Origin: Bacteroidales bacterium
Lineage (GTDB): Bacteria; Bacteroidota; Bacteroidia; Bacteroidales; JAAYJT01
Direction: 5' to 3'
Assembly (NCBI GenBank): GCA_014860575.1
Contig: JACZJK010000031.1
Location: 1 to 64,000, forward strand
DNA length: 64,000 nt
Shown here: one piece after another, positions 5,678 to 29,181 of the stretch
How positions within the stretch are numbered: the stretch's first letter is position 1
Layout of the letters: every line of letters starts with the position of its first letter
The notes under the pieces: model-generated
What the model was told of the DNA's origin: nothing
What the model saw: the letters and a program-made list of their open reading frames with translations, nothing else
Database searches by the model: none
Translations under genes and position numbers: made by a program

Positions 5678-5745
5678 CAAAGTTCCAGTCTTTAAAAGCA
5701 AAATGTGTTACATAATTTCATCTAAGAATTACAACATTCACACAT
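5678..5745 (-). promoter_or_regulatory. Stress-regulon promoter, copy 1
   Basis: On the minus strand: ATGTGTGAAT (5745-5736), 2 nt, TGTAAT (5733-5728), 15 nt, TGTAAC (5712-5707), 21 nt, then GAACTTTG (5685-5678) as a degenerate -7 box. Spacings are identical to six other promoters in the window. It drives the CHRD-like lipoprotein gene with a leader of about 56 nt. Confidence 0.75.
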
Positions 5746-5760
5746 TGGCAGGGGGCACAA

Positions 5761-5864
5761 GAGCCAAGACCCAAATTCTAGGTACCAAGTCTCAAGCCCA
5801 AAGAAGTAGAATACTCCATTAACTAATCAACTAAAGATGAAGTCCAAAGCCCAAAATCCAAAGT
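5761..5864. repeat. Low-complexity ccaagtc/ccaaagcc repeat tract
   Basis: Short degenerate units such as ccaagtctcaagcccaaag and aagtccaaagcccaaaatcc. Similar strings occur at 22973-23045, 46185-46235 and 53540-53600. It is non-coding and lies just before MITE copy 2. Confidence 0.6.
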
Positions 5865-6008
5865 TGAGTCCATTCTGAAAAGTCAATCTGCCCCTAAATC
5901 CCCTAAAGGGGACTTTTACAAATTGCTGATTTTTAGCGTTTCCCCTTTAGGGGTCAGGGGTTAAAAACGATAAAAATCAGCAATTTGTAACTTTTTAGAG
6001 TGGACTCA
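5865..6008. mobile_element. 144-bp inverted-repeat element, copy 2
   Basis: Same length and structure as the copy at 4043-4186, with a few substitutions in the ends (ccattctgaaaag on the left, ctttttagagtgg on the right). It is flanked by AAGT on both sides (5861-5864 and 6009-6012), consistent with a 4-bp target duplication. It is non-coding, inserted in a repeat-rich spacer upstream of the CHRD-like lipoprotein gene. Confidence 0.8.
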
Positions 6009-6212
6009 AAGTTCAAATTCAAAATAACTTTGGTTTGTAGATTTACGAATCTTAAATCTGGAATTTTGATTTATTAACTCTATCATTCCATTACTCCAAC
6101 CAATTAGCCAATTGACTTTTAAACCATTTACACATTGCATTACTCCATTAATCCATCACTCCATCACTGTATAACTGTATCACTGCATCACAACAGAAAA
6201 GCATCACAGCAC
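6009..6212. repeat. Low-complexity spacer, ccattactcc and ctgtatcactgc strings
   Basis: Contains tagatttacgaatcttaaatctgg, runs of ccattactcc/catcactcc and ctgtataactgtatcactgcatcac. These match in reverse orientation the spacer at 46046-46190. No gene seen. Confidence 0.55.
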
Positions 6213-6398
6213 CTACACATTGATATTCTTCAGATAGTCAATTACACCAAACTCCATCAGAAGCCATGCGATCACAACAATAACCACCACCACATTGAGA
6301 ATGGATTTTATTTTCCGGTCCATCGGAATGAAACTATTGACCAGCCAGAGCGCCACGCCTGCAACGATCAATACAATGAAAACTGTTAAAAGTGACAT
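6213..6398 (-). CDS. 61-aa two-TM membrane miniprotein
   Basis: Two hydrophobic helices (about 3-21 and 32-50) are separated by a short basic loop PMDRKIKS, with a conserved-looking C-terminus LLMEFGVIDYLKNINV. The pattern resembles the small Thivi_2564-type membrane protein family. Such miniproteins are frequent in stress-responsive clusters, but their function is unknown. The start is firm because the regulon promoter's -7 box is only about 23 nt upstream, leaving a leader near 19 nt. It appears monocistronic. Confidence 0.75.
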   Translation of the reverse strand: MSLLTVFIVLIVAGVALWLVNSFIPMDRKIKSILNVVVVIVVIAWLLMEFGVIDYLKNINV

Positions 6399-6420
6399 AA
6401 TTAAGGTTTAAGATTAACCG

Positions 6421-6488
6421 CAAAGGTAATTTGCTTAAATTTTAAATGTGTTACAAAACTATTGGAAAGAGTTACATGATTCACGCAT
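6421..6488 (-). promoter_or_regulatory. Stress-regulon promoter, copy 2
   Basis: Minus strand: ATGCGTGAAT (6488-6479), N2, TGTAAC (6476-6471), N15, TGTAAC (6455-6450), N21, TACCTTTG (6428-6421). The -7 box is a perfect TAnnTTTG. It drives the 61-aa membrane protein gene. Confidence 0.8.
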
Positions 6489-6664
6489 GAAACTTATAGC
6501 CTGAATAATTTCACACCGCCAGGACGCCAGGACGCAAAGATTTGATTTGAAAGAGAATAAGAGATGTTGATTGCAACAATTAACATTATTACTTTTTCCA
6601 CTAAGTGACTTATTCCGTAGGCCTTAGCGGTTTGACACGAAGATTTGTGAATAAAACAGGCTAT

Positions 6665-6767
6665 AAATGAAGCTTGTTCTAAGAACCGGAATTTCATCCT
6701 TCATCAAGTCTATGCGCTGCAACAGGTAAATATTAGGTTCAATACCATCAAGGTCAATATCAAAAAT
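6665..6767 (-). pseudogene. Remnant of a second cbpM-like gene
   Basis: Reading minus from 6767, the translation includes FDIDLDGIEPNIYLLQRID and LMKDEIPVLRTSFIYS. This aligns over about 34 residues with the C-terminus of the intact CbpM at 10752-11042 (YDLDINLAGIETITHLLQRI, EILQDEISVLRNRLRFYE). The N-terminal helix-turn-helix part is missing and no start codon exists. The open frame runs on to a stop near 6626. It lies just after the glycosyltransferase gene and upstream of promoter copy 2, as the intact cbpM lies just upstream of promoter copy 3. Confidence 0.7.
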
Positions 6768-6772
6768 GCCAT

Positions 6773-9226
6773 CTAAGTCTTCCCTTGACAATCATAGATA
6801 CTTACTGTATGTCCCGCTGTGATTGAGGCTTCAGAATAAGTGGATTTCTTATGGTTACTTTGGGTCGCGTTATCTGAGTTCTTATACCCTTCCATTGTTA
6901 ATCGCGCCATAAGATAGCTAACTGTTGACTCAGCACCCTGGTTAAGGTTCACATTGTTTTCTTCCAAACCATCGTAACAACCTCCGGTGCAGGGATTGTA
7001 GATAATCTGGTGCAGGTGATTCTTTCCTAAAAACCAGTTAAATGCTGTATCCATTTTTTCGCGGTATGCTTCATCCATAAAAACATCGTAAAATTTACCC
7101 AGCGTCATTATTGTGTAGGCAACGTCAATGGGCTGTTCACCAAAACGACCTGCTTTACCTCCTTTTTGTAACCAGTCTTTGTTTGAGATCACTTCTATGC
7201 CGTCTTCGTGAAAGGTTTGCGATAACAGGAAATTAAACGATGCAATGGCAATGACTTTATAAATTGGTTCTTTGGTCAATAACCACGCGTACAGCATGGC
7301 TTCGGGCAGTATGCTGTTGGCATAGGTAAGGTAACTCTCGAACCATCTCCAATGTTCTTTTGATTCATGTCTGAACATTTGCACCAAACGGTCGGCCAAC
7401 TTTTTCAGAAGAGCAAGGTTTTTCGGACACTTAAAGGCATAATTATCATAGTATAAACCCTTGATTGCAAAAGCCATAGCACGTGTAGAATTTACCGTAT
7501 CAATATGTATAAGCGATCTTTTCAGAATTGCTTTGGCTTCAGATATTATTCCATCAGGTATTATGTCAAACAATGAGATTAAATACCCTAAGGCCCAAAT
7601 AGCCCTGCCGTTAGAGTCATCTAAATTGGTGGAACTGTTTTGATCAGTAAATTGGGTGTCTTTGTCAACATAGTTAAGAAAGTCACCTGAAGGTTGAAGG
7701 CAACGTTTGATAAAGCCGAGGTATATACTTATGCTATCCAGGCTTTCTTTATGTGCTGTCAATTTGAAGTTCATACACGTGGCCACCAATGCCCTTGCGT
7801 TATCATCGAGCGTATAGCCCGACTCTATATCAGGTTGGTTTATTTTCGAAAACTGGATAATTCCGGTTTCTGTTGTCATATGTTTCAGATGCGCCATATT
7901 GATAACCGGAAGGTTATACTGTATAGCAATCACACCAAAACTCATTTCTTCGAACAAAATGGCATGAGCCACGGCTGAATTTTCCCAGGCTGTTGATACT
8001 ATTTTCTGCAATGAATTTACACTGAGATGTTTTCGTAATGGTTCATCGTTGAGCAACCGACTAACAGCAATTGCTAATTGTTGTGCATTGTGAAAATCGA
8101 AGATAATGCCCATGTCTTGAGTTAAAACTTCCCTGGCATGTGGAATGGGTGTTGAAATAATTGGGCATGCGCAACTCATAGCGTAAGCAAAAGTGCCGCT
8201 TACAGCCTGGTTCGGATCGTTGGCGGTAAACAGATAAATGTCAGTCAACTGTAAGTATTCCAACAAAACGGGCAGTGCCAGATATTTGTTAATGAATGTC
8301 ACATGGTTGTTAAGTCCGTACTCTTTTACCTTTTGTTCCAGACTGTCACGATATGTTTCCCCGTCATTTTTTACAACTTCAGGGTGAGTTTTTCCAAGCA
8401 CAAGAAACATCACTTCAGGACAATCTTTAACAATAGCCGGTAATGCTTCAATAGTAGTTTCAATACCCTTACCAGAACTCAACAATCCAAATGTTGCAAG
8501 GACTTTCCGGTTCTTAAACCCATATTTTTGCTTCAATAAATCTTTACTCAAATGTGGCACTAAATGGGTACCATGAGCGATTACATTTATTTTCTTAGGA
8601 TCAACACCATAATCGTACGTTAAAATCTCAGCAGAATTATGAGTCATTACAATGATTGATTCGCAGGCTGTGGTAATTGCTTTGATTTTTGATTTAAGTT
8701 CTTCGCCAGGATTGGGAAGTACTGTGTGAAATGCTATCAAAACCGGCTTTGAAATCTCGTATAAGAATTTTAAAAATGCTTTTTCTTGTTTTCTGAACAA
8801 ACCAAACTCATGCTGGATCAGAACCATTTCAATGCAACTGTCGTTATTAATATTTGATGCCAATTTTTTATAATCATTGACAGATGAAGTATCAAGTGTA
8901 AATTTAACCTCATCGGGATATTGATACTTGACATCGCCGTTTTCCAACGCACAAATTCTAATAGTTAACGAGTCGCTGAATTTATTATCAAGCGACTTTT
9001 TTAAATCCTGTGAATAGGTTGCAATGCCACACTCACGCGGCGGATAGGAGGCGATAATCAGGATTTCGGCTAAATTGCGATCGGGAGAAGGAGCAGAATA
9101 TTTGTGGCTTTTTTTTGGATCAATATTCAGATAGGCTCTATTAACAGGCTCAAACAGATCATTTGATTTGCTTTCATCCACATAGTATTGGTTGAAATCT
9201 TTTTTATTTTTCATCTTTAACGGCAT
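6773..9226 (-). CDS. GT4 glycosyltransferase fused to an alpha/alpha-toroid domain
   Basis: 817 aa. After a polar tail, the GT4 (GT-B fold) part spans about 50-430. It has a glycogen-synthase-like start (ASYPPRECGIATYSQDLKKSL), an acceptor-side IQHEFGLF, a nucleotide-side GLLSSGKGIETTIEALP and a donor-binding SGTFAYAMSCACPIISTPIPHAREVL. From about 450 to 790 lies a helical domain (TLDDNARALVATC, STNLDDSNGRAIWALGYL, LPEAMLYAWL, AESTVSYLMARL) resembling six-hairpin toroid glycosidase-like domains. The sugar and linkage cannot be read from sequence. It is the last gene of a leftward set with a GH130 enzyme, overlapping it by 23 nt (start ATG 9226; ATG 9214 is an alternative). The pairing suggests synthesis and turnover of a mannose-containing glycoside or surface glycan. 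Confidence 0.8.
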   Translation of the reverse strand: MPLKMKNKKDFNQYYVDESKSNDLFEPVNRAYLNIDPKKSHKYSAPSPDRNLAEILIIASYPPRECGIATYSQDLKKSLDNKFSDSLTIRICALENGDVKYQYPDEVKFTLDTSSVNDYKKLASNINNDSCIEMVLIQHEFGLFRKQEKAFLKFLYEISKPVLIAFHTVLPNPGEELKSKIKAITTACESIIVMTHNSAEILTYDYGVDPKKINVIAHGTHLVPHLSKDLLKQKYGFKNRKVLATFGLLSSGKGIETTIEALPAIVKDCPEVMFLVLGKTHPEVVKNDGETYRDSLEQKVKEYGLNNHVTFINKYLALPVLLEYLQLTDIYLFTANDPNQAVSGTFAYAMSCACPIISTPIPHAREVLTQDMGIIFDFHNAQQLAIAVSRLLNDEPLRKHLSVNSLQKIVSTAWENSAVAHAILFEEMSFGVIAIQYNLPVINMAHLKHMTTETGIIQFSKINQPDIESGYTLDDNARALVATCMNFKLTAHKESLDSISIYLGFIKRCLQPSGDFLNYVDKDTQFTDQNSSTNLDDSNGRAIWALGYLISLFDIIPDGIISEAKAILKRSLIHIDTVNSTRAMAFAIKGLYYDNYAFKCPKNLALLKKLADRLVQMFRHESKEHWRWFESYLTYANSILPEAMLYAWLLTKEPIYKVIAIASFNFLLSQTFHEDGIEVISNKDWLQKGGKAGRFGEQPIDVAYTIMTLGKFYDVFMDEAYREKMDTAFNWFLGKNHLHQIIYNPCTGGCYDGLEENNVNLNQGAESTVSYLMARLTMEGYKNSDNATQSNHKKSTYSEASITAGHTVSIYDCQGKT

Positions 9227-10250
9227 AAGTTAACAATTCTGCTAATAATGCCGATAGGCTCACTGAGGCTGTAGCAATTACAGAATCGGCTGCACCATAA
9301 TAAATGAATAGTGTATCTTCAAATAAGGCACTGCCAGTAGGAAATACCACGTTATTAACTTCTCCTCTTCGTTCCCATTCGAATTCTGGTGAGAAGAGCG
9401 CATACGGTAATCTTGCGATTACTTTTGCGGGATTATTTAAATCTAGTAGCGCTGCAGCGCAGGCTGAGTAAACAATTCCATGATCAGTTTCTTCTGCACC
9501 ATGGTATATTAAAAGCCAGCCGTATTCTGTTTCAATTGGAGGACACCCACTGCCGATATAGCTGCTTTCATGCTGAAAAACAGGATCGAGAATTATATGA
9601 TCCTCAAGCTTGAGGAAGTATTTCTGCCAAAAAGCTTGATTTAAATCTTTTAAATTATCTATTGAAACGATTTGAATGCCCGGTCTGATCCGATGCAGGA
9701 AAACCAACTTACCTTTAACCCTTCGCGGGAAGAAAACCACGTTTTTATCCCAAAGCATGATCTTTTTTTCAGGGTCAGATTCCTGAAAGTAAAACTTTTG
9801 GTTCCGGTAATACCTTTCATTTACCTTTCCTGCGGTTTCTGCAAGAAATACGAACTCAGCATAAGAAATTGGAGGGACTATGATTCCGTGCTTTTTGAAC
9901 TTCTTTAAATTTTTCGAAGTTGCCAAAGCCCCGCGGGCATTTAACCCATCATAAGCCGTATAGGACATAAAATACAAATCATCAATTTTAACAATACGGG
10001 GATCCTCAACACCCTGCGTTTCGTAATCGAATTCCGGAATCATAATAGGCTTTTCCCACCGTTCTGCTACCGTCAAAGGGCCTGCAAGCCGGCAATAACC
10101 AATGGTGGAATAATTGCCTTTCTGAACAGCCCTGTAAAATATGTGAACGCTGTCACCTTCGCGTATTGCTGCCGGATTCAGTACGCCATCGTTTTCAAAT
10201 TCAAAATCGGTTTTTGAAATTAGGATACCATGTTTTTCGACTTCTATCAT
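9204..10250 (-). CDS. GH130 family glycoside phosphorylase/hydrolase
   Basis: 348 aa, the usual length for GH130. The five-bladed beta-propeller signature is visible: VLNPAAIREGDSVHIFYRAV near 23-42, GVEDPRIVKIDDLYFMSYTAYDG near 82-105, and GSGCPPIETEYGWLLIYHG near 235-255. Known family members are beta-1,4- or beta-1,2-mannoside phosphorylases and beta-1,2-mannosidases. Which one this is cannot be decided here. No signal peptide is present, so it acts in the cytoplasm. It overlaps the downstream GT4 gene, so the two are translationally coupled, and it follows the acidic protein gene by about 80 nt. The operon probably starts at regulon promoter copy 3. Confidence 0.85.
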   Translation of the reverse strand: MIEVEKHGILISKTDFEFENDGVLNPAAIREGDSVHIFYRAVQKGNYSTIGYCRLAGPLTVAERWEKPIMIPEFDYETQGVEDPRIVKIDDLYFMSYTAYDGLNARGALATSKNLKKFKKHGIIVPPISYAEFVFLAETAGKVNERYYRNQKFYFQESDPEKKIMLWDKNVVFFPRRVKGKLVFLHRIRPGIQIVSIDNLKDLNQAFWQKYFLKLEDHIILDPVFQHESSYIGSGCPPIETEYGWLLIYHGAEETDHGIVYSACAAALLDLNNPAKVIARLPYALFSPEFEWERRGEVNNVVFPTGSALFEDTLFIYYGAADSVIATASVSLSALLAELLTYAVKDEK

Positions 10251-10332
10251 AATAGCTAATTTTAAGAATTATATAGAGTAATGTTCAGCGCTTCTTCCGT
10301 TTTGAGTTAAACGGCTAATTTGATCCGATCCA

Positions 10333-10662
10333 TTACCCGTGGTTCTCATCCAGATCGTTATGAGCGTCTCCACCTAAACTGTAATAGTTGTTCTCTTCAT
10401 CTTCACTTCCAATATCTTCCATGTCGTCATCCAATTCTGATCCGGGAACATCTAAATCTCCACCAGGTAATAATTCATCCAAATTTTCTTTTTCTGAACC
10501 TTTGGTTTTGAGTATATCTTCAGGATTTATATCTTCCTCCTCCAGGTAGTTACTGTATATATCATCAGTTGCTGGATAGCTTGGGTATCCGGGCAAATTG
10601 CTTTCATCGCTTTTTAATTCTGTGTCTGACAAATTTGGGGTATTATTTTTTTTCTGCACCAT
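10333..10662 (-). CDS. Acidic low-complexity protein of unknown function
   Basis: 109 aa, very rich in Asp, Glu, Asn and Ser (DLDVPGSELDDDMEDIGSED). It contains a Tyr/Pro-rich patch (LPGYPSYPATDDIYSNYLEEEDI) and a C-terminal YYSLGGDAHNDLDENHG. There is no signal peptide, TM helix or recognised domain, and it is predicted largely disordered. The start is supported by promoter copy 3, which leaves a leader of about 17 nt. Small acidic disordered proteins of this type occur in Bacteroidota stress clusters, but a function cannot be assigned. It heads the GH130-GT4 set. Confidence 0.7.
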   Translation of the reverse strand: MVQKKNNTPNLSDTELKSDESNLPGYPSYPATDDIYSNYLEEEDINPEDILKTKGSEKENLDELLPGGDLDVPGSELDDDMEDIGSEDEENNYYSLGGDAHNDLDENHG

Positions 10663-10682
10663 GATAATTGAATTTAGAGAAG

Positions 10683-10750
10683 CGAAATTAAGCTCCTTAA
10701 AATTGATTTGTATTACATGAAACTAACAAAGGGTTACATAATTCACACAT
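10683..10750 (-). promoter_or_regulatory. Stress-regulon promoter, copy 3
   Basis: Minus strand: ATGTGTGAAT (10750-10741), N2, TGTAAC (10738-10733), N15, TGTAAT (10717-10712), N21, TAATTTCG (10690-10683). It starts 1 nt after the cbpM stop codon, so the upstream cluster and the acidic protein/GH130/GT4 set are directly abutting units. Confidence 0.8.
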
Positions 10751-10751
10751 G

Positions 10752-11042
10752 CTACTCATAGAAACGAAGTCTGTTTCTGAGTACCGAAATTTCATCCTGC
10801 AATATTTCTATGCGCTGCAACAAGTGTGTAATGGTCTCAATTCCAGCAAGGTTAATGTCCAAATCATAATAAAAGCCCATACATTTCTCAAGTTGTCGAA
10901 GCTGGTCCGCGTCTACGTACCCTGATTCTTCAACTGTAATGATTTCTATCAATCCTGATTGCTCCAATGAGCTGATGAACGAAACCTCAATATCGTGCTT
11001 AGCACAAAGTTCATTAACAGTTATTAAACATTTTGTTTGCAT
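10752..11042 (-). CDS. cbpM: CbpM-like chaperone modulator
   Basis: 96 aa, small MerR-like helix-turn-helix protein (ITVNELCAKHDIEVSFISSLEQSGLI), followed by the coiled LLQRIEILQDEISVLRNRLRFYE C-terminus. In E. coli, CbpM binds the J-domain of CbpA and inhibits its co-chaperone and DNA-binding activity. Its gene follows the cbpA-like dnaJ gene by 17 nt, the usual arrangement. A truncated relative of this gene is left at 6665-6767. Confidence 0.85.
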   Translation of the reverse strand: MQTKCLITVNELCAKHDIEVSFISSLEQSGLIEIITVEESGYVDADQLRQLEKCMGFYYDLDINLAGIETITHLLQRIEILQDEISVLRNRLRFYE

Positions 11043-11059
11043 GGCTTTTCTTTTGAAGA

Positions 11060-11944
11060 TTACGAGCTAGCCAATTCAGTAAATAATGCTTTTTGTTTCT
11101 CTGTTAAATTCGTTGGAGTTTTGATATTCCAGGTTATGAATAAATCTCCAAATTGCCCTTCTTGCTTATAAACTGGAAACCCTTTATTTTTTAACTTTAT
11201 TTTACTTCCATTCTGAGCCCCGGCAGGCACTTTAACTTTCACTTGTCCGTTTAAAGTGTCAATAGTGGTTTCGCCACCCAATACCGCAGTGAACAAATCC
11301 AGCTCGGCCATACCGTAAAGATCATTACCCAAGCGTTTGATTTTTTGATGATTGGCAATGGAGAAGGTAATATATAAATCGCCATTCGGCCCTCCGTTTA
11401 TTCCCTGACCACCATGTCCGGCGATTTTAATTGTTTGTCCGTTTTCAATTCCTGCAGGGATAGTAATTCTTATTTGCTTTCCGTTTACTGTTAAAGTCTG
11501 CTTGTGGGTTCTATAAGCATCAATAAGGTTAAGTTGCAACTCTGCGTTATAATCTTCTCCCCTGTATTTAATCTGTCTGCTTCCACTCTTGCTTGCTGAC
11601 CGACCAAACATAGATTCAAAAAAATCAGAGAAATCATGTTCAGCGTATGCTCCTGAATACCCGGTTCTATGCGGACTTGATGATTTGGTCTCGTACTGTT
11701 GTGCCTTTTCATATTCTTCAGCATGTTTCCAATCCTTTCCGTACTGATCATATTTCCTGCGTTTTTCAGGATCACTCAATACTTCATTGGCTTCATTGAT
11801 TTGCTGAAAATTCCTTTTCGCATCTTTATCATTTGGGTTTAAGTCGGGATGATACTTACGGGCTAATTTTCTGTATGCATTTTTGATGTCCTTAACAGTA
11901 GCAACTTTGTCAATCTCCAAAATTTTATAATAGTCAATGAACAT
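11060..11944 (-). CDS. cbpA: CbpA-type DnaJ co-chaperone
   Basis: 294 aa. The J-domain occupies about 1-70 with the HPD motif at residues 32-34, the site that stimulates DnaK ATPase. A Gly/Ser/Phe-rich linker (about 85-135) follows, then two DnaJ C-terminal substrate-binding domains (about 130-290: DYNAELQLNLIDAYRTHKQTL, GLGGETT-like VLGGETTIDTL). The zinc-finger repeats of true DnaJ are absent, which places it in the CbpA class. It is paired with cbpM downstream and lies behind a universal stress protein and a 52-aa basic protein, suggesting a stationary-phase or stress chaperone. Confidence 0.9.
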   Translation of the reverse strand: MFIDYYKILEIDKVATVKDIKNAYRKLARKYHPDLNPNDKDAKRNFQQINEANEVLSDPEKRRKYDQYGKDWKHAEEYEKAQQYETKSSSPHRTGYSGAYAEHDFSDFFESMFGRSASKSGSRQIKYRGEDYNAELQLNLIDAYRTHKQTLTVNGKQIRITIPAGIENGQTIKIAGHGGQGINGGPNGDLYITFSIANHQKIKRLGNDLYGMAELDLFTAVLGGETTIDTLNGQVKVKVPAGAQNGSKIKLKNKGFPVYKQEGQFGDLFITWNIKTPTNLTEKQKALFTELASS

Positions 11945-12022
11945 ATTGAATCTATTTGATTGATGATTGCTTCACCCCATTGCATCCGGTTGTGATACAG
12001 GATTTTTAAACCTGTAATAGTT

Positions 12023-12181
12023 TTAATTTAAGCCTGAACCTTTAGGTTTGAAAGGAATCGCGTATTTGCTATCTGCACGTTTATCTTCCCGTTTAGCCTC
12101 TTTTGCAGCCCTCTTTTCTTTCAGGGTTTTTGCGGGGGCTTTCATACCTGATTTTTCTTTTCCTTCTCTTTCTTTTGCCAT
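12023..12181 (-). CDS. 52-aa basic protein (KAPAKTLKEKR type)
   Basis: Start ATG at 12181, stop TAA at 12023-12025. The product begins MAKEREGKEKSGMKAPAKTL, continues KEKRAAKEAKREDKRADSKY and ends AIPFKPKGSGLN. It is extremely Lys/Arg/Glu-rich, without hydrophobic core, so probably unstructured or nucleic-acid-binding. Similar short KxAPAKxLKEKRA proteins are common in Bacteroidota, without known function. It begins 18 nt after the universal stress protein gene and precedes dnaJ by 78 nt, in the same direction. Confidence 0.72.
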   Translation of the reverse strand: MAKEREGKEKSGMKAPAKTLKEKRAAKEAKREDKRADSKYAIPFKPKGSGLN

Positions 12182-12199
12182 TGTGTGTTGTTTTAATAA

Positions 12200-12688
12200 T
12201 TAATCATGATTCCTGGTAGGGACAACGAGCAGCGGGACCTCTGTAAGTTGAAGCACCTTTTCAGTAACGCTGCCCACCAGTATCTTTTCCAGCCATTTTT
12301 GGCTATGCGATCCCATAACAATGATATCTGCATGTAAGTCATTGGCTGCCTTTAGAATTGATTCAGCAAAATCACCTACTTCAATGATGGTTTCTATGTC
12401 TTCACTGCCAAGGTGTTGTTTTATTTTATTAAGATATTGTAAAGTTGCATCTTCCAGCGCTTCGTCAATGTTCAATTGAAGTTGGCCAATGTCAGAGTAA
12501 CCGGTAAATCCCATTATCGGCGAATATGCCGTTGAAGAATAAAAAACAGGGTCGCCAATAACATGCAATAGAAAAACCCTGGCATTATTCATTGATTTGG
12601 CCATTGCATAACCTACTTCAGCTACTTTTTGTGCGGTTGGATCATAATCAATCGCGATGAGTACTTTGTCTAACTTTTGTGTTTTCAT
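12200..12688 (-). CDS. Universal stress protein (UspA family)
   Basis: 162 aa, single Usp domain. The N-terminal strand KVLIAIDYDPTAQKVAEVGYAMA and the C-terminal ATP-binding motif IIVMGSHSQKWLEKILVGSVTEKVL match the family. The G-x2-G-x9-G[ST]-type loop is slightly changed (GSHSQ rather than GxHG), so ATP binding is likely but not certain. These cytoplasmic proteins accumulate on growth arrest. It lies 38 nt after the hydrolase gene within the same-strand stress cluster. Confidence 0.9.
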   Translation of the reverse strand: MKTQKLDKVLIAIDYDPTAQKVAEVGYAMAKSMNNARVFLLHVIGDPVFYSSTAYSPIMGFTGYSDIGQLQLNIDEALEDATLQYLNKIKQHLGSEDIETIIEVGDFAESILKAANDLHADIIVMGSHSQKWLEKILVGSVTEKVLQLTEVPLLVVPTRNHD

Positions 12689-12726
12689 GAATTTTATCCT
12701 TTACATTTTAGTTTACTGAAAGTGGG

Positions 12727-13569
12727 TCAAATCTTTGCAAATTTTATTAACTCTGAATTAAATTTCCGGGTTTCCTCAAGAAACAAGCTATGGCCGCTTT
12801 TCTCAAAAGCAATGAGTTGTGAGTTTTTAATCATAGCCTTCATTTGCTCCCCCAGATCAAACGAGCATATTTTGTCCTTTTTGCCATGCATGATCAAAGT
12901 TGGGATTTTTATTTTTGCCAGATCTTCTCTCAGATCGGTGTCGCGCAATGCAATCAGGCATTGAGCCGTTGCATGCGAAGAAGCGCTTAAACAAATCCCG
13001 TTCAGCCAACTGCCAATCCCTTCATTCAATGAAGTTTCAGTAGCTGAAAATATTTTTGCGAAATCGGCTAAAAGCTTTGGCCGGTCCTTGTAGTTCAATT
13101 CAATGAGTTCATCTACTGCACTCTTCGGAAGGTTATATGGAAAATCATCACGCTGTGTCCAGATGGGTGCAGCAGCTCCAAATAAGGCCAGTTTCGTAAC
13201 ATGAGCTCCATCATCTACTGATGCATAACGAATGGCAACTGCTCCACCCATTGAAAAGCCACCCATCACTGCATCTTCTATTTCCAGTTTGTTTAAGATG
13301 TTTTTTAAGTCCAAAGCATGCACACCATAATCATAAGCTCCAAATGGTTTGTCGGATTTTCCAAAACCTCTGAGCGTAATGCCAATTACACGAAAGTTAT
13401 TATTTACCAGATCGTTGTATTGATATTCAAACATCTCATCACTTAACGGCCATCCGTGTATCAGCACAATGGGCCTTCCCTTGCCTGCATCCGTAATATG
13501 AAGGCGCACATTGGGTTCTGATTCAATATACTCAGCCCTGGCAACAACAGCCTTTTTTTCTTTATTCAT
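12727..13569 (-). CDS. Alpha/beta hydrolase (haloperoxidase/esterase-like)
   Basis: 280 aa, one alpha/beta-hydrolase domain. The oxyanion-region HGWPLSDEMFEYQ near 39 and the nucleophile elbow GFSMGG with Ser106 are clear. A catalytic Asp is likely in MHGKKDKICSFD and the His in KSGHSLFLE. The family includes non-haem chloroperoxidases and arylesterases; substrate unknown. There is no signal peptide. It sits between the hibernation factor and universal stress protein genes, 38-99 nt apart, so it probably belongs to the same stress transcription unit. Confidence 0.85.
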   Translation of the reverse strand: MNKEKKAVVARAEYIESEPNVRLHITDAGKGRPIVLIHGWPLSDEMFEYQYNDLVNNNFRVIGITLRGFGKSDKPFGAYDYGVHALDLKNILNKLEIEDAVMGGFSMGGAVAIRYASVDDGAHVTKLALFGAAAPIWTQRDDFPYNLPKSAVDELIELNYKDRPKLLADFAKIFSATETSLNEGIGSWLNGICLSASSHATAQCLIALRDTDLREDLAKIKIPTLIMHGKKDKICSFDLGEQMKAMIKNSQLIAFEKSGHSLFLEETRKFNSELIKFAKI

Positions 13570-13621
13570 TTGTTCGTTAATTTAACTTATTTATTAATAA
13601 ATCTCGCCAAGAAGCTATGAA

Positions 13622-13662
13622 AGTTTAGAAGGTTTAGAGTTTAGGATGTTTAGAAAGACAAC
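13622..13662. repeat. Degenerate gtttagaag/tttaggatg repeat
   Basis: Units agtttagaaggtttagagtt and taggatgtttagaaag are the reverse complement type of the ctctaaac/catcctaaac string at 50585-50645. It is non-coding, between the hydrolase and hibernation-factor genes. Confidence 0.5.
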
Positions 13663-13668
13663 TCAATT

Positions 13669-13983
13669 TTAATAATTTCTCAATCGCCCAAGCATGGTAC
13701 TAAGGGAGGTTTTCATTTTATCCACTGCGCCTTTTACTGCCTTCTCATAAGTATCTGCCTGCTCAGAAACAGCAAGCGGCTGCAGGCCTTCAAGGCGGGC
13801 TTCAAGCAAACATCGTTTGTCTTCATGTCCGTCCTTACTGCCATCTTCATCTGAAAGATGAACTTCCACACGGCTGATCTGGTTATCGAACCTTTTCAGA
13901 GGTTCAGATATTAATTCCATTAGCGAATTTCTGAGTTCTTCGCTGGCAGTTGCATTGTTGTCTGTATTAATTTGAATTTTCAT
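13669..13983 (-). CDS. Ribosome hibernation factor, HPF/RaiA family
   Basis: 104 aa, the length of short HPF. The S30AE/HPF fold shows as MKIQINTDNN, then a helix ending in RFDNQISRVEVHLSDEDGSK, CLLEARLEGLQPLAVSEQADTYEKAVKGAVDKM and a basic C-terminal LGRLRNY. Family members bind the decoding centre of the 30S subunit and silence ribosomes in stationary phase. It lies 87 nt downstream of the GGQ-containing eRF1-like gene. Linking a ribosome silencer and a release-factor-like protein is a notable context. Confidence 0.85.
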   Translation of the reverse strand: MKIQINTDNNATASEELRNSLMELISEPLKRFDNQISRVEVHLSDEDGSKDGHEDKRCLLEARLEGLQPLAVSEQADTYEKAVKGAVDKMKTSLSTMLGRLRNY

Positions 13984-14070
13984 AAGCTATTTTTTTGTGA
14001 TGCTGTAATACAGTTATGCAGTGATACTGTGTTTGTTGTTTTGTTTCCGTTATCAGGATTTTCGATTTTC

Positions 14071-15225
14071 TCAATATCGAAACATAGCTGCTAGACCGGT
14101 TTCAGAAGGCATACTTTCAGGTGGAAGAACCATGACCAGGCCACCCATTTTTGTAACCAGTTCACCCATATCGTCGAGCAGGTCGTCAACTCTAGGGTTA
14201 TCCATATCTTTTTTCTGGGTATTGCCAGTGATCAGGTTTGTTATCCTCACTGCAATTATCCGGTCAGCTTCAACCAGCAGTGTATCAACCCTACCTTCCA
14301 CAGCTGCGACAGCTACTTCTTTGTAATCATCACTTCCTTTACCATTTGCGCGCGCCTGCTCAAATCTTTCGGCCAGGCTCTTAAGTTTTAAAGAATAAAC
14401 CGGTTCAAATGCCTCCCAGGCCAGTTCAACCAGTTTGTCAGTTGAAACAGATGTTGGATTAATCATGATGCCATCGGGAAGAACCAACGGATTTTTGTTT
14501 ACTTTTTGAAACAGACTGTGGTGTTCGGGTAAAGCAGCAAGCACCAGAGGCCAGCCGGTTGGCTTCGAAATGTGTTCCGCAACAGCCTCAGCAACAACAC
14601 GAAAAAACCGTTCAGCATCTTTTTCTGTTTCATCACTTTGGCCTCCATGGCCATGATGCATGCTTGTACTATCTCCTCCGGCGCCTCCATAAGATGCAAC
14701 AGTTGTATGTTTCTCAGTCAACTCATCTCCAAGTGCTTCGGTTATGGTTTTTGGAACCCCAGGTGAGACATTAATCTCAACAAGAGAGTGGCGATTTCCT
14801 TCATAAAGCCGGATTTCGTGCAGGCTTAAGCCCAAAACGTGATAGTTATCAGAGGATTGCAAATATTTTTGTAAGGGTTTGGTATGGAAGCTATCGGCTA
14901 CAACTGCCAACTCTTCAACAGCAATCGGAAGCCTTATGGCCTTAAAAAGTTCGTCGGCGCTTAAAACAGCAAGTCCTTCAGAAGTGTGATTCCAAAAATC
15001 TTTGTCATCCATAAGCTCTTCGAACGGCCCAAGATGTTTTTGGGCTTCATCGGCCGAATACTTTCGCAGCAAGGATTCTTCCATTTGCTTGACAAGATTT
15101 TTAAATCTTATCGGATCCTGAAGATTGTCGGGATGGCTCTTGTGAGTAGTCATGTAAAGCGAGAGACAAGGCGCCCGGTCTATTAGCAGGAGCTCCTTAA
15201 GTAATTCTTTAGTAAGTGAATCCAT
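14071..15225 (-). CDS. Bacterial eRF1-like protein (baeRF class) with GGQ motif
   Basis: 384 aa. The N-terminal half (about 1-125) resembles the bacterial archaeo-eukaryotic release factor families (LYMTTHKSHPDNLQDPIRFKNLV). It continues with a domain carrying LSLHEIRLYEG and ends with a third domain around 300-380. Residues 191-196 read HGHGGQ, followed by SDETEKDAERFFRVV. This resembles the HGRGGQSALRFxR stretch of eRF1, where GGQ positions water for peptidyl-tRNA hydrolysis. Such proteins are proposed to act in ribosome rescue or quality control. That role is inferred here, and no stop-codon recognition motif was identified. Neighbours (HPF, Usp, DnaJ) fit a ribosome-stress setting. Confidence 0.75.
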   Translation of the reverse strand: MDSLTKELLKELLLIDRAPCLSLYMTTHKSHPDNLQDPIRFKNLVKQMEESLLRKYSADEAQKHLGPFEELMDDKDFWNHTSEGLAVLSADELFKAIRLPIAVEELAVVADSFHTKPLQKYLQSSDNYHVLGLSLHEIRLYEGNRHSLVEINVSPGVPKTITEALGDELTEKHTTVASYGGAGGDSTSMHHGHGGQSDETEKDAERFFRVVAEAVAEHISKPTGWPLVLAALPEHHSLFQKVNKNPLVLPDGIMINPTSVSTDKLVELAWEAFEPVYSLKLKSLAERFEQARANGKGSDDYKEVAVAAVEGRVDTLLVEADRIIAVRITNLITGNTQKKDMDNPRVDDLLDDMGELVTKMGGLVMVLPPESMPSETGLAAMFRY

Positions 15226-15341
15226 ATTTCTTTGTTAAGGTGATTGATTGATTAAAACCCGGTATATAATTTTGATAGTAGCTAAAGTCACAAATTATTT
15301 ATCACAATAAGTAGTAAGCGTAAAGCCTGGTAAAATTCAAC

Positions 15342-15369
15342 AAGCCTATTCCAGATGTTCTATAGGCTT
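15342..15369. terminator. Possible hairpin after the M48 gene
   Basis: AAGCCTAT and ATAGGCTT form a perfect 8-bp stem around a 12-nt loop, embedded in a longer imperfect repeat (ttcaaca ... tgttgaa). It is about 30 nt after the M48 stop. No strong T-tract, so read-through into the downstream cluster is possible. Confidence 0.35.
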
Positions 15370-15400
15370 CAAACCGGTAACCTGTTGAACCAATTAAAAT

Positions 15401-16333: not shown

Positions 16334-16401
16334 CAAAGGTAAATTCTGTTAATTAATAAATTGTTACACAACTTTTTAATAGTGTTACATAATTCACACA
16401 T
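16334..16401 (-). promoter_or_regulatory. Stress-regulon promoter, copy 4 (divergent region)
   Basis: Minus strand: ATGTGTGAAT (16401-16392), N2, TGTAAC (16389-16384), N15, TGTAAC (16368-16363), N21, TACCTTTG (16341-16334). It drives the M48 gene leftward. The rightward L,D-transpeptidase promoter (16418-16425) starts 17 nt beyond the upstream motif, so a factor bound here could affect both directions. Confidence 0.8.
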
Positions 16402-20433: not shown

Positions 20434-20586
20434 TCAGACTCTTCTTCCCTGAACAAGCCTTAATATAATGGCAATGACGGCAATAACAAGAAGAACGTGT
20501 ATGATACCTCCGGCGCTAAAGCCAAGAAAGCCAATTGCCCAAAGAATAATTAACACAACTGCGACGATGTAAAGTAGATTTCCCAT
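20434..20586 (-). CDS. 50-aa membrane protein, lmo0937 family
   Basis: Start ATG 20586, stop TGA 20434-20436. The product MGNLLYIVAVVLIILWAIGF continues LGFSAGGIIHVLLVIAVIAI and ends ILRLVQGRRV. Two hydrophobic helices flank the FSAGG turn, which is the signature of the lmo0937-type miniprotein family. Its function is not known, but it is commonly found next to CsbD/YtxH-type stress genes. It lies 51 nt downstream of the 107-aa membrane protein gene and has no promoter of its own that could be seen, so it probably shares regulon promoter copy 5. Confidence 0.8.
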   Translation of the reverse strand: MGNLLYIVAVVLIILWAIGFLGFSAGGIIHVLLVIAVIAIILRLVQGRRV

Positions 20587-20637
20587 AATTTTAATTTTAA
20601 AATGTGTGAATAAATTGATACCAATACTGGCAACCTC

Positions 20638-20961
20638 CTAAAGCAACAGGATCAGAAGCAAAATAATAATTATTGATGCGGCAACGGTTATGATATATCC
20701 TCCGGCGCCAAGCTCTTTTAGTTCTTTTTTAATGCTGCGAACCTCTTTGCGTAATTCTCTCTTTTCTGATGGGCTCATCACCGATTTATCCATGGCTTTT
20801 ATTTCGTCAAGCCTGGCCAGCAGGGAGTATACCGCATCTGACGTAGTATTATCGGTAGTCACATCATGAGTTGAACTGCTTTCCGGCACTGCTTTTAATT
20901 GCATAGAACCTATAGCTAACAACCCCAGCACTGCCATTGAATAAAACAATAACTTTTTCAT
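20638..20961 (-). CDS. 107-aa membrane-anchored stress-type protein
   Basis: Start ATG 20961. The longer frame to 21006 would begin upstream of the predicted transcription start. An N-terminal signal or anchor (MKKLLFYSMAVLGLLAIGSM) is followed by a Ser/Thr-rich stretch. A charged helix comes next (MSPSEKRELRKEVRSIKKEL), then a C-terminal TM helix of Ile/Leu (about 88-107). This layout, with an EKRELRKEVRxIKKEL helix, recurs in small Bacteroidota proteins of unknown function. It is first gene of a two-gene operon with the lmo0937-type miniprotein. Confidence 0.75.
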   Translation of the reverse strand: MKKLLFYSMAVLGLLAIGSMQLKAVPESSSTHDVTTDNTTSDAVYSLLARLDEIKAMDKSVMSPSEKRELRKEVRSIKKELKELGAGGYIITVAASIIIILLLILLL

Positions 20962-20993: not shown

Positions 20994-21061
20994 CAAAGAT
21001 ATTCACTACACATACTGAAAGTATTACACAATTTCATCATAACCTTACATAATTCACAGTT
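20994..21061 (-). promoter_or_regulatory. Stress-regulon promoter, copy 5
   Basis: Minus strand: AACTGTGAAT (21061-21052), N2, TGTAAG (21049-21044), N15, TGTAAT (21028-21023), N21, TATCTTTG (21001-20994). It drives the 107-aa and 50-aa membrane protein genes with a leader near 29 nt. Confidence 0.8.
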
Positions 21062-21120
21062 ATTTAATGGCAATAAAACCTTGCCAGTTTATCGAAATGA
21101 TTAAGACACAAGACCCTGCA

Positions 21121-22950: not shown

Positions 22951-22969
22951 GAGCAAGTATCAAGTCTCA

Positions 22970-24121: not shown

Positions 24122-24160
24122 GACAATCCTATATCTTTTATGTTATTTCTGATTAATCTG

Positions 24161-25818: not shown

Positions 25819-25933
25819 TTTATGACGCTTGATTTCATTGTTCAGAAAGTTGGCTTAGAGTTTAAAATCTTTCAATGCTCTAAAGCACAATAAGCATTGC
25901 AGCTATATCCGACTGATTTGCTTTTCAAATTCT

Positions 25934-27043
25934 TTAATGTGTTCGTATTTTTTTAAATCTCCTAAATAAAGGTTCTATCTTTATCAGTGGTGGCATTGTA
26001 TCACCAAGCAGGAATCCCCAGGGTTTTAGTGGTTCAATATTGTCAAGAGCCAGTTTTATAATGGCAAGCAAGGGGATGGCAAGGAACATACCCGACAATC
26101 CCCATAATTCGTACCCTAAAATAATTATTATTATTGAGAAAAGCGCATTGAGCTTAACCCTTGAAGCAACAATCTTGGGAACAATATAGAAATTATCAAG
26201 GAGCTGGATAATCCAGTGTAAAACAAAAACATAAAATACATAAACTGGTGATTTGGTTACTAAAGCAAATGCCATGAACAGCAACATTGCAACAAATGGC
26301 CCGATGTATCGGATTATATTCAGTAAGCCCCCTACAACAGCAAGAAGGATTGCGAATTGAATGCCCAGCACCAGAAACCCGATTAAATATAAAATCAGTA
26401 TAAGTATAAATTCCATAAAAAGTCCAACAAGATAGCTCTGAATCACATTCTTTGATTGTGTAATCATTTCGTTCAACTGACTATGCTGGCTTGTGTTAAA
26501 AAGTTTGTGAATAAAGTCAATAATAAGGGGTTGGTACAACAGGATCAAAAAAATGTAAACCGGAACCAGAAACAACACTATAAACCACCCGCTAACAGTA
26601 ACTATCGTTTTTCCCAGTGAGTCCATGCTGGAATTGACAATATTTGTTTTCGTTTCCGCTATCCAGATATGAAATTTCTGTGGGTTAATATCGAAATAAC
26701 CAGATGCCCATACTATCGTATCATTGAGTAACTCAGTAAATTTATCAATCAGTAAAGGCCAGGATTCACTAAACCGGCTTACCTGGCTGAATAACAAGAC
26801 ACTTAAAACGGAGAGAACAACGATAGTTATGAGTAAGGTTATTGAAATAGCAATCACCCTGTTGATTTTTAGCCGGATAAAGAAATTAACCACCGGGTGA
26901 AGTAGCACGGCTATGATGACTGAGAAAATAATAGGGAGTACTATTCCCCTGGTTATGTACAAAATTATAAACAGGGTAACAATACCCATAAACGATACAC
27001 TTGCCTTTGCAAATATGGACAAGTAGTTTTTACTATCCGTCAT
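25934..27043 (-). CDS. AI-2E family permease
   Basis: 369 aa with about eight TM helices and the family pattern RGIVLPIIFSVIIAVLLHPVVNFF, FLVPVYIFLILLYQPLI and VGGLLNIIRYIGPFVAMLLFMAFAL, then LLDNFYIVPKIVASRVKLNALFSIIIIILGYELWG. Family members have been linked to AI-2 export or Na+/H+ exchange; which applies is unclear. It overlaps the preceding 133-aa gene by 11 nt and is the last gene of the YtxH-holin set behind regulon promoter copy 6. Confidence 0.88.
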   Translation of the reverse strand: MTDSKNYLSIFAKASVSFMGIVTLFIILYITRGIVLPIIFSVIIAVLLHPVVNFFIRLKINRVIAISITLLITIVVLSVLSVLLFSQVSRFSESWPLLIDKFTELLNDTIVWASGYFDINPQKFHIWIAETKTNIVNSSMDSLGKTIVTVSGWFIVLFLVPVYIFLILLYQPLIIDFIHKLFNTSQHSQLNEMITQSKNVIQSYLVGLFMEFILILILYLIGFLVLGIQFAILLAVVGGLLNIIRYIGPFVAMLLFMAFALVTKSPVYVFYVFVLHWIIQLLDNFYIVPKIVASRVKLNALFSIIIIILGYELWGLSGMFLAIPLLAIIKLALDNIEPLKPWGFLLGDTMPPLIKIEPLFRRFKKIRTH

Positions 27044-27434
27044 AGTTTACCTGATTTGCCTTTTTTCTTTTGAAGATGCGTTGTGCTATAAAATTGCCAA
27101 ATGTCCTTATTCTGTTAGTGTTTCGGCCTACAATATTGGTAACCCCAAATTGTAAAGCAGTACCCAGGAGTTTTCTGAACAGATTTGAAGAGGCTCCAAC
27201 AAAAACACTTCTGGATAGGGAACCCACTGCTACACCTGCAATAGCCCCTAATACACCATCAAACTTTAGAGAAGATGCCCCCTCCCTGAATGTATCCTTA
27301 AGGAGGTTGATTGGCTTCAGACCTTCGACTACACCAAAGAATTCATCCCAAAGTAAATGTTCCTTATACTCTTGCTCAGCTTTCAATATCGCTATGGTAG
27401 CGTCAAGCTCGCCAATGGAAGTTATTGTTTCCAT
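27033..27434 (-). CDS. 133-aa protein of unknown function
   Basis: No recognised family. An N-terminal helix (ITSIGELDATIAILKAEQEYKEHLLWDEFFGVVEGLKPINL) is followed by a Gly/Ala/Ser-rich stretch (VLGAIAGVAVGSLSRSVFVGASSNLFRKLLGTALQFGV) that may be a weak membrane segment, and by a basic C-terminus. It lies between the holin-like gene (6 nt gap) and the AI-2E gene (11-nt overlap). In related Bacteroidota, similar proteins follow holin-X genes, so a membrane-associated role is inferred. Confidence 0.65.
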   Translation of the reverse strand: METITSIGELDATIAILKAEQEYKEHLLWDEFFGVVEGLKPINLLKDTFREGASSLKFDGVLGAIAGVAVGSLSRSVFVGASSNLFRKLLGTALQFGVTNIVGRNTNRIRTFGNFIAQRIFKRKKANQVNYDG

Positions 27435-27440
27435 ATGGGT

Positions 27441-27782
27441 TTAATTAAATAGGTTTTTGACTAAGCATTGAAGAAAGTATTTCTTGAGTCCTTTATGGAA
27501 AACGAAATGCAACGCTAACGCAATGATCCCATAGAATCCGGAAACTATGAAAAATCCGTAATAAATATTCTCCAGTGCCTCGCCTATCAGCAGAGCAAGA
27601 CCCAGACTAATAAACAAAATGCAGGTAGAAACTAAAACAAGTACTATGGTATGAGGTATCCAGGTAGAAACAACGTCAGTAATTTCCTTCACTGCCTGAA
27701 GTTTGGCTAATTTTATGCTTGTTTTGCTATAATCTATAGCTCTTTCAAGCAATGTTTCAAACCGGTTAGCATCATCTTCCAT
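27441..27782 (-). CDS. Holin-X-like membrane protein
   Basis: 113 aa with two central TM helices (HTIVLVLVSTCILFISLGLALLIG and YGFFIVSGFYGIIALALHFVF) and an amphipathic N-terminus (ERAIDYSKTSIKLAKLQAVKEITDVVSTWI). This is the pattern of the phage-holin/Actinobacterial holin X type (PF07332) often found behind YtxH. No phage genes are nearby, so it is a cellular membrane-stress protein rather than a lysis holin. The gap to YtxH is 61 nt. Confidence 0.75.
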   Translation of the reverse strand: MEDDANRFETLLERAIDYSKTSIKLAKLQAVKEITDVVSTWIPHTIVLVLVSTCILFISLGLALLIGEALENIYYGFFIVSGFYGIIALALHFVFHKGLKKYFLQCLVKNLFN

Positions 27783-27843
27783 AGTTTTGTTTTATAAAGT
27801 ACAGATTTTAAAAGTTGGTAACTCCACTTTTAGCTTTTTCGGC

Positions 27844-28080
27844 TTATTTATGAGCCTTCCTGGCAAACTCCGATGCACCACTTCTGACTTCATTATACTT
27901 ATCGGAAATATCATCAACGGTTTCATTGAATTTGTTTTTCAATTCATCGGTGAAGTCTGTCCCCATTTTGATATATTTTTTGCGGGTATCCGAACCTTTT
28001 GCCGGAGCTAAAAGTATTCCTAACAATGCACCGCCGGCCAGGCCAGCTAAAACGCCTAATAACACTTTTCCTGAACTCAT
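27844..28080 (-). CDS. YtxH-domain protein
   Basis: 78 aa. The YtxH signature is clear: GKVLLGVLAGLAGGALLGILLAPAKGSDTRKKY at residues 4-36, followed by an amphipathic helix (DFTDELKNKFNETVDDISDKYNE). YtxH proteins are small membrane-associated general-stress proteins of unknown mechanism. It is first gene behind regulon promoter copy 6 and leads a set of four (YtxH, holin-X, 133-aa protein, AI-2E permease). Confidence 0.85.
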   Translation of the reverse strand: MSSGKVLLGVLAGLAGGALLGILLAPAKGSDTRKKYIKMGTDFTDELKNKFNETVDDISDKYNEVRSGASEFARKAHK

Positions 28081-28113
28081 AAATTTAATTTTTAGATGTA
28101 ATTATTGATTTCA

Positions 28114-28181
28114 CAAAGGTATTTCATTGAAAACATGGATATCTTACACAACTTTTGCAAAATGTTACATCATTCACACAT
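28114..28181 (-). promoter_or_regulatory. Stress-regulon promoter, copy 6
   Basis: Minus strand: ATGTGTGAAT (28181-28172), N2, TGTAAC (28169-28164), N15, TGTAAG (28148-28143), N21, TACCTTTG (28121-28114). It drives ytxH with a leader of about 30 nt. Confidence 0.82.
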
Positions 28182-28316
28182 TGCCTGAAAAAGACTTCTC
28201 AAAAGCGAAATTTATTCGTTTCAGATAAAAGCCTTTCAGAGAAAACTTGGCAACAAGCATTTGGCAAAGAGCCTATCTGCATCACTCAAATACTGATTTA
28301 CATAAAACCAAGTGCA

Positions 28317-28349
28317 TAAAATAAAAACCCACTTCATTACGAAGCGGGT
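28317..28349 (-). terminator. Intrinsic terminator of the porin gene
   Basis: On the minus strand ACCCGCTTC-gtaat-GAAGTGGGT forms a stem with one G-T pair, followed by TTTTTATTTT. It lies about 50 nt after the porin stop codon at 28397. Confidence 0.75.
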
Positions 28350-28396
28350 CCTTGTTAATGTTGCCGATGTATTCAGGCATCAGCCGTCATTATTTC

Positions 28397-29089
28397 TTAA
28401 AACAGGTACGAAACCCCAATATATCCTGCGTAGGTTCTCATTCGGTTCTTATCAAGCACATAGTAATCCTGGGTGCTCGCGTTCTTTGAATTATCGCTGA
28501 TATCAATAAGACCCATCACACCGCGGAAACCAATACCCATCCGAAGTGTACTGGCACTGTTAAGCCCAAAATCTAAGCCGGCGCCATAAGCAATACCAAG
28601 GTCACCTTTTCTAACGGCCAATACAGCTTCACCAGTTGCTGAACCATTTCCGCCTGACGCAGTAAGCTCGCTTCCAACACTAAAACCAATCTGTGGGCCT
28701 GCAACAACAGTAAAGTTAAAAGGCTGTGTTTTACCTGTGTTCAAAGATAGAAGCAACGGAATGTTCACATAGCGTAATAAAATTTCGCGTTCAACATCTT
28801 CTTCCTTGTATTTCTGTGCAATAGCGGAATAAATAATCTCGCCTTGGACTCCGACATGCTCAGAGAAATGGTACCCAAGAAGTATCCCACCACCATAACC
28901 CATTGTTAGTTTGCCCTTAATTGTGCCACCATCAGAAGTCTTAATGTTTAAGGCAGAGAATGTTGGCATAAACCTAAGGCCTACTTCACCTGTCTGTGCT
29001 TTGGTATTTATGGGGCCTGCAAATAATAAAGCTGTAACAGACACATACAATACCCATCTTATACTTAATTTTTTCATTTTGTTTATCAT
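28397..29089 (-). CDS. PorT/OmpX-like outer-membrane beta-barrel protein
   Basis: 230 aa (start 29089; ATG 29077 is an equally good alternative). Signal peptide WVLYVSVTALLFAGPINTKAQ. The rest forms an eight-strand barrel of the PF13568 type: GEVGLRFMPTFSALNIK, GYGGGILLGYHFSEHVGVQGEIIYSAIAQKY, NIPLLLSLNTGKTQPFNFTVVAGPQIGFSV and YAGYIGVSYLF with a terminal Phe. The role of these small barrels is mostly unknown. Behind regulon promoter copy 7 it may report or buffer outer-membrane stress. It has its own terminator, so it is monocistronic. Confidence 0.85.
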   Translation of the reverse strand: MINKMKKLSIRWVLYVSVTALLFAGPINTKAQTGEVGLRFMPTFSALNIKTSDGGTIKGKLTMGYGGGILLGYHFSEHVGVQGEIIYSAIAQKYKEEDVEREILLRYVNIPLLLSLNTGKTQPFNFTVVAGPQIGFSVGSELTASGGNGSATGEAVLAVRKGDLGIAYGAGLDFGLNSASTLRMGIGFRGVMGLIDISDNSKNASTQDYYVLDKNRMRTYAGYIGVSYLF

Positions 29090-29113
29090 TTTAGTTTTTC
29101 TTCAAACAATGTG

Positions 29114-29181
29114 CAAAGGTCATGTAATAAAATGCCTGATGCATTACATAATTATGGCAAATGATTACATGATTAACAGGT
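29114..29181 (-). promoter_or_regulatory. Stress-regulon promoter, copy 7
   Basis: Minus strand: ACCTGTTAAT (29181-29172), N2, TGTAAT (29169-29164), N15, TGTAAT (29148-29143), N21, GACCTTTG (29121-29114). This is the most diverged copy but has the same spacing throughout. It drives the porin gene. Confidence 0.7.

Follow-up and report, generated by a model that had tools for sequence, protein, structure and literature searches.

Do seven promoter-like elements of one design in the genome of a Bacteroidales bacterium belong to a single regulon, and which protein acts on them? The question is raised by the first 64,000 nucleotides of contig JACZJK010000031.1 (assembly GCA_014860575.1), the whole of which is referred to as the window hereafter. 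Seven minus-strand sites had been noted between positions 5678 and 29181 in an earlier reading of the letters (the original prediction), each composed of an upstream element, two TGTAAn repeats and a -7 box, and these had been ascribed to a probable undescribed stress regulon under a dimeric activator such as a response regulator. The present analysis suggests that the window sites are very probably the operators and core promoters of a 20-promoter regulon, and that its likely regulator is a small protein of the AraC family whose gene (C64:9523-10062) lies outside the window.

The literal pattern TGTAA-N16-TGTAA has 46 matches in the whole genome, as compared with 21 for the reversed pattern. 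Fourteen of the 46, chosen by eye for a fuller operator, were aligned (alignment A1; the flanks were read for 16), and a sequence-only model, R1, was built from this alignment. For cross-validation, a matrix was built solely from seven sites outside the window, and both window strands were scanned with it. All seven 68-base-pair (bp) sites, each an operator with its -7 box, were found on the minus strand: site 1 at 5678..5745 (R1 E 6.3e-13; cross-validated matrix score 38.6), site 2 at 6421..6488 (6.5e-15; 49.5), site 3 at 10683..10750 (2.2e-11; 37.1), site 4 at 16334..16401 (1.3e-13; 51.7), site 5 at 20994..21061 (1.1e-11; 40.4), site 6 at 28114..28181 (3.5e-14; 47.2) and site 7 at 29114..29181 (6.1e-13; 44.8). 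The seven best matches to the outside-site matrix in the window are exactly these sites (37.1-51.7), while the next match reaches 10.1, and the highest score among 20 Markov-1 randomised windows is 11.0.

The paired words TGTAAn-N15-TGTAAn are exact in 7/7 sites, with word starts 21 bp apart, as had been claimed. The two outer elements are looser than had been written: the upstream element ATGTGTGAAT is exact in 4/7 sites, the other three carrying ATGCGTGAAT, AACTGTGAAT and ACCTGTTAAT, and the -7 box TAnnTTTG, which is that of a Bacteroidota promoter, is likewise exact in 4/7, the other three having GAACTTTG, TAATTTCG and GACCTTTG. The distance from the second TGTAA to the -7 box is fixed in all seven sites, start to start, at 27 bp rather than the 29 bp given previously; the formula in the original prediction itself yields 27.

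The genome and related Bacteroidota were scanned, as the original prediction had suggested. When R1 was run on the 4.4-Mb genome, 20 sites were found down to E 1.5e-5, the 21st lying at E 0.07. A regulon whose promoters have a common design and fixed spacing is supported. Eight of them are on the contig of the window and 12 are on four other contigs; 13 of the 20 thus lie outside the 24-kb island to which the sites had been thought to be confined. The motif is also found across the phylum: at E ≤ 1e-4 it occurs in 70 of the 295 genomes sampled from the order and in 33 of the 395 sampled from the phylum, the present genome being included in each. Sites per genome in the order were counted with stricter filters and from at most 17 scored candidates per genome. 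Multi-site islands recur, as in G256, where 15 sites scoring >30 are found within about 59 kb (here and below, the matrix cut-offs of 30, 25 and 15 were chosen after the scores were seen). Sites inside genes are rare: among 140 sites scoring >30 in the loci of 20 genomes, 138 lie outside open reading frames (ORFs) of at least 100 amino acids and 2 lie inside, and an ORF starts within 150 nucleotides (nt) downstream of 105 of them.

Which protein accompanies the motif? The most widely shared ORF family in the motif-selected loci of 21 genomes comprises 21 copies in 13 genomes, 172-207 amino acids long as called, and the copy of the present genome is the C64 protein named above, of about 180 residues. 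Its AraC domain matches HTH_18 with 64.0 bits against a cut-off of 33.6. For a sample independent of the motif, 80 named loci were fetched with the regulator protein alone, as the best matches listed; 69 of them entered alignment A3, 11 being omitted for start or frame trouble. (L262 and L322, both among the named loci, probably correspond to the records G139:C4 and G065:C15.) Cultivated bacteria whose genomes are available in complete or draft form also have homologues, namely Emticicia, Lacihabitans, Ancylomarina, Pontibacter, Flavobacterium and Niastella. In L264, L298, L306, L313 and L316, a second gene of the same kind closely follows the first, an arrangement that suggests a regulator cascade.

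AlphaFold modelling on 69 homologues (predicted local distance difference test 92.2; predicted template modelling score 0.84) yielded a predicted fold with a separate N-terminal beta-alpha-beta-beta-alpha-beta domain, the predicted order of elements agreeing with a ferredoxin-like fold such as that of HMA domains, and a C-terminal AraC double helix-turn-helix. In structural alignment, the C-terminal part is matched by structures of AraC type with Z values of up to 13.7. For residues 1-63, HMA proteins lead the matches (Z 6.6-7.6), while other ferredoxin-like domains reach 6.7, and the alignment tool cautions that Z values like these may reflect no more than a common arrangement. With Foldseek alone, GolB and TTHA1718 came up with E values of 0.48-0.51 and probabilities of 0.94 and 0.89, and Pfam gave no HMA match for the N-terminal domain. 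At the position of the metal loop, 68 of 80 homologues have SxxC, 11 have CxxC and one has NxxC; the present copy has SxxC and so lacks the CxxC loop of HMA domains.

The geometry seen in the window is reproduced in the protein-selected loci. In the 80 loci, 123 TGTAA pairs occur at a spacing of 21, whereas none of the other spacings between 10 and 45 is represented by more than 19. The box [TC]AnnTTT[GA] stands at offset 27 in 48 of 69 operators and at 26 in 5, while in the reversed-flank control it is found at most once at any offset. In 161 distinct operators, a set wider than the protein-selected loci and partly motif-selected, the conserved columns of the -7 box are A 92%, T 99%, T 100%, T 90% and G 73%. 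No separate conserved -33 box was seen in the operator alignment columns. The repeats are separated by two helical turns, and the one nearer the -7 box falls at the -33 region, as had been proposed.

AraC sites are direct repeats of 21 bp that adjoin the -35 region, and a half-site at a fixed distance from a good -7 box, with no separate -33 box, is the usual layout for a class II activator. The layout found here, taken together with this AraC biology, suggests class II activation by an AraC dimer, because the half-sites are one AraC period apart, the proximal one is at -33 and the -7 box is ordinary. The dimer would occupy a direct repeat of the half-site AAT-nn-TGTAA(C) with a spacing of 21 bp; the copy nearer the promoter would stand in for the -33 element, and the protein would therefore bring RNA polymerase, carrying the ordinary sigma factor, to the -7 box that lies 27 bp further on. 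A dimeric activator, as originally proposed, is retained as the simplest reading. An overlap with the -33 region permits either sign of control, and the same AraC protein might instead repress, its proximal half-site blocking that region. This appears unlikely in view of the fixed 27 bp between the half-site and a good -7 box and the lack of a separate conserved -33 box. An alternative sigma factor was also considered and rejected, as the -7 box is an ordinary one and the repeats probably extend too far upstream to be a -35 element.

The position of the operator relative to the candidate gene provides further evidence of linkage. In many regulator copies, including the present one, a site lies 50 nt before the start or ends 60 nt after the stop. 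The present copy ends with ..CTG-TGA, the TGA being bases 6-8 of an operator that scores 61.5, and the promoter of this operator faces a hybrid kinase gene. The same stop-spanning register is found in L114, L158, L160, L162 and L165, and in a degenerate form (score 22.1) in the C56 paralogue of the present genome; sites 50-51 nt before the start are found in L110, L113, L114 and L151. Among the 80 protein-selected loci, the exact repeat pair starts 4 nt after the stop in 23, every other offset is represented at most once, and 46 have no exact pair after the regulator stop. By the matrix, 32 of the 80 have an operator in the exact stop-codon register. Of 36 other copies, 11 carry a site scoring >25 at another position within 300 nt downstream of the stop, and the four Balneolota copies have none. 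The genes that follow the regulator vary from locus to locus; in 10 of the 80 loci the regulator directly precedes a PAS hybrid kinase. Among 16 near genomes with a placed homologue, 12 have a site beside the regulator gene, several of them weak (G000, G001, G002, G004, G009, G014, G027, G028, G031, G032, G035 and G040), and no site was listed beside the homologue in G007, G023, G033 and G034. As a separate observation, TATAA-like words replace TGTAA just after the regulator stop codon in the Flavobacteriaceae copies L298 and L316, and we propose that they may be a natural specificity variant.

The codons at the regulator end were also compared. In the stop-spanning copies, the last codon is NTG in 31 of 32 (V 15, M 10, L 6) and the stop is TGA in 30, as against 11 and 11 of the 36 other copies, a difference that is partly built in, because the TGTGA columns contribute to the matrix score that defines the class. 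The last codon varies among GTG, CTG and ATG while ..TGTGA stays. The tree, whose bootstrap had not yet converged completely, places most kinase-operon copies in a single clade (14 rows, support 100/98); the stop-spanning copies are dispersed yet more clustered than shuffled labels, and the present copy pairs with a Bacteroidales metagenome-assembled genome (100/90). Since the operator commonly lies across the regulator stop codon (..TG-TGA-AT..), the regulator, the operator and the downstream target may form a cassette. A broader picture, tentative and somewhat short of an even chance, would be that Bacteroidota largely possess a general-stress regulon run by an AraC activator with a metallochaperone-like domain and no alternative sigma factor. 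The regulator would keep an operator-promoter across its own stop codon, and this portable cassette would gain different targets in each lineage. Within this broader picture, the change of codon with ..TGTGA retained would point to selection at the DNA level.

The co-occurrence of regulator and motif was computed over the 295 genomes of the order. At E ≤ 1e-76, a cut-off picked after the scores had been seen, the motif is present in 52 of 55 genomes with a homologue and in 18 of 240 without one. The rows of the query alignment (A2) were drawn from loci that bear the motif, in 13 genomes that are all included in the 52. The Fisher p is 1.7e-38, which is not an independent-trials probability because the genomes are related. 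Furthermore, 33 of the 35 genomes with at least 5 sites have a close homologue, the exceptions being G048 and G108. With looser cut-offs, the motif-bearing genomes number 54 of 76 (1e-60), 61 of 111 (1e-45) and 64 of 128 (1e-35). Close homologues thus predict the motif well and distant ones less so, and some motif-rich drafts have no detectable regulator.

Several results weigh against assigning the motif to this AraC protein, and the choice of cut-off and the origin of the query just described are two of them. At 1e-35, half of the genomes with a homologue (64/128) carry the motif, as against 6 of the 167 others. Eighteen genomes have the motif with no homologue at E 1e-76, and six of these (G006, G024, G048, G141, G151 and G241) have none at 1e-20. 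G108 has 14 sites and a distant homologue only. Conversely, a close homologue unaccompanied by any site at E 1e-4 is found in G086, G160 and G192, though G086 has a site at E 2.5e-4 beside the regulator gene. Finally, the present genome encodes two further regulator paralogues, on C56 and C10.

These exceptions lend some weight to the idea that another, unlinked DNA-binding protein regulates the sites and that the AraC gene is merely a frequent target or neighbour. G108, G048, G006, G151 and G241 are motif-rich assemblies with no close homologue, and a site ahead of a gene is what a target shows. However, the exception assemblies are drafts of 80 to 660 contigs, the counts of 52/55 and 18/240 speak for the AraC gene, and it is this gene that is constant while the others behind the sites vary; the geometry is also that of AraC. 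No other shared DNA-binding protein stood out by eye in eight loci, on short contigs, of six genomes that have sites but no close regulator homologue. We regard an unlinked regulator as improbable, slightly more so than repression. In one of these genomes, G241, two divergent sites lie beside a 149-amino-acid ORF that resembles a hybrid kinase remnant (C38; L235, about 9882-10590), possibly a decaying regulon.

A LytTR or other response regulator, the binder first suggested, is very improbable: the 21-bp spacing made LytTR the first candidate, as its sites likewise consist of direct repeats spaced by about 21 bp, and the present genome has nine LytTR genes, with receiver-only proteins and hybrid kinases common in the islands, but the linked gene is of the AraC family, no receiver domain was found in its product, and 57 motif-selected loci, from 27 genomes, contained no LytTR domain at E 1e-3, so that it was dropped. 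Thirteen LytTR matches obtained with full-length queries vanished when the domain alone was the query.

The AraC-family protein would then drive envelope, chaperone, ribosome-hibernation, KaiC-KaiB and signalling genes. In the window, all on the minus strand and with operon extents judged from gene order, site 1 is followed by a 269-amino-acid probable lipoprotein of no Pfam family (4809..5618) and site 2 by a 61-amino-acid Thivi_2564-family membrane protein (6213..6398). Behind site 3 are genes for an acidic 109-amino-acid protein, GH130 and a glycosyltransferase (6773..10662), probably an operon, and behind site 4 are those for an M48 protease, a baeRF-family protein, S30AE, a hydrolase, Usp, DnaJ and a MerR_2/CbpM-like protein (10752..16204), probably one transcript. 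Site 5 precedes a 107-amino-acid small membrane protein and a DUF5670/lmo0937-family protein (20434..20961), site 6 a putative operon of YtxH, holin-like, 133-amino-acid and AI-2E-family genes (25934..28080), and site 7 an outer-membrane beta-barrel protein (28397..29089). A histidine kinase without a receiver domain (18802-19734) lies inside the island; it was rejected as the cognate sensor, as nothing but its position speaks for it. Beyond the island, an 1101-amino-acid multi-PAS/GAF hybrid kinase is encoded at 55393-58698.

Elsewhere in the genome, the site at C31:104951 precedes kaiC, two kaiB genes and a PAS protein gene in a row (C31:105091-108313, L107). The two KaiB proteins match Pfam with 91 and 88 bits, and from its gene content we propose that this row may be a clock-like or stress-type Kai operon. 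The seven sites of C64 are associated with a CheB domain, YunG, an OmpA glycine-zipper protein with a beta-barrel, a 155-amino-acid lipoprotein (322 nt away), an ice-binding protein, a 108-amino-acid protein and the PAS hybrid kinase; the three of C43 with a P-type cation ATPase, DUF6799 and a 200-amino-acid protein; and the single sites of C13 and C56 with DUF5661 and a heavy-metal-binding domain, respectively. When families within 400 nt behind a site were tallied, with genomes and named loci as sources, the commonest were a 112-amino-acid family, cupin-like at best weakly (20 sources), a lipoprotein family (17) and the AraC family itself (16), followed by a family of 61 to 91 amino acids (14), the 155-amino-acid lipoprotein (10), YtxH (9), OmpA glycine-zipper proteins (6) and kaiC (3). 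In several lineages, the regulon would include a regulator gene. In G048, a site is followed after 60 nt by a 61-amino-acid protein that Pfam identifies as CsbD (57 bits), and two other small proteins, CsbD-like by eye, had no Pfam match. The term stress regulon, as used in the original prediction, is suggested by these kinds of targets, which agree with it.

To our knowledge, little is understood of the way in which a broad stress response is coordinated in Bacteroidota, which lack SigB and RpoS, and no paper on this was found among those listed from the open-licence PMC literature. No description of such a regulon or regulator was found among them either, in agreement with the view that it is undescribed. 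In a study of Bacteroides thetaiotaomicron networks (PMC12596196), the main text has no occurrence of AraC, general stress, YtxH, TGTAA or hibernation, and one passage concerns a SigH-1 promoter motif. With an operator defined, 20 target promoters listed for one genome, a candidate for the regulator and homologues of it among cultivated bacteria, the question can now be tested directly. Moreover, an operator across the regulator stop codon is easy to recognise and allows a regulator to be matched with its site from sequence alone.

Three known systems may be compared. The general stress regulons of SigB and RpoS have the same kinds of targets, namely YtxH, CsbD, Usp, DnaJ with a CbpM-like protein, a hibernation factor and OmpA-type proteins. 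They differ in that an alternative sigma factor is used there, while here an ordinary -7 box and probably an activator would serve a presumed stress response. The HMA copper chaperones (GolB, CopZ, Atx1 and TTHA1718) resemble residues 1-63 in predicted fold (Z 7.0-7.5, against 6.7 for other ferredoxin-like domains) and in where the metal loop is placed, whereas the regulator homologues mostly have SxxC instead of CxxC. The AraC/XylS activators (AraC, MarA, SoxS, ToxT and Rns) have the same double helix-turn-helix domain and, in the AraC layout, two direct half-sites 21 bp apart that reach the -35 region. In contrast to them, the protein described here has a predicted HMA-like N-terminal domain in place of a cupin or ligand pocket, a phylum-wide regulon of stress type and an operator across its own stop codon.

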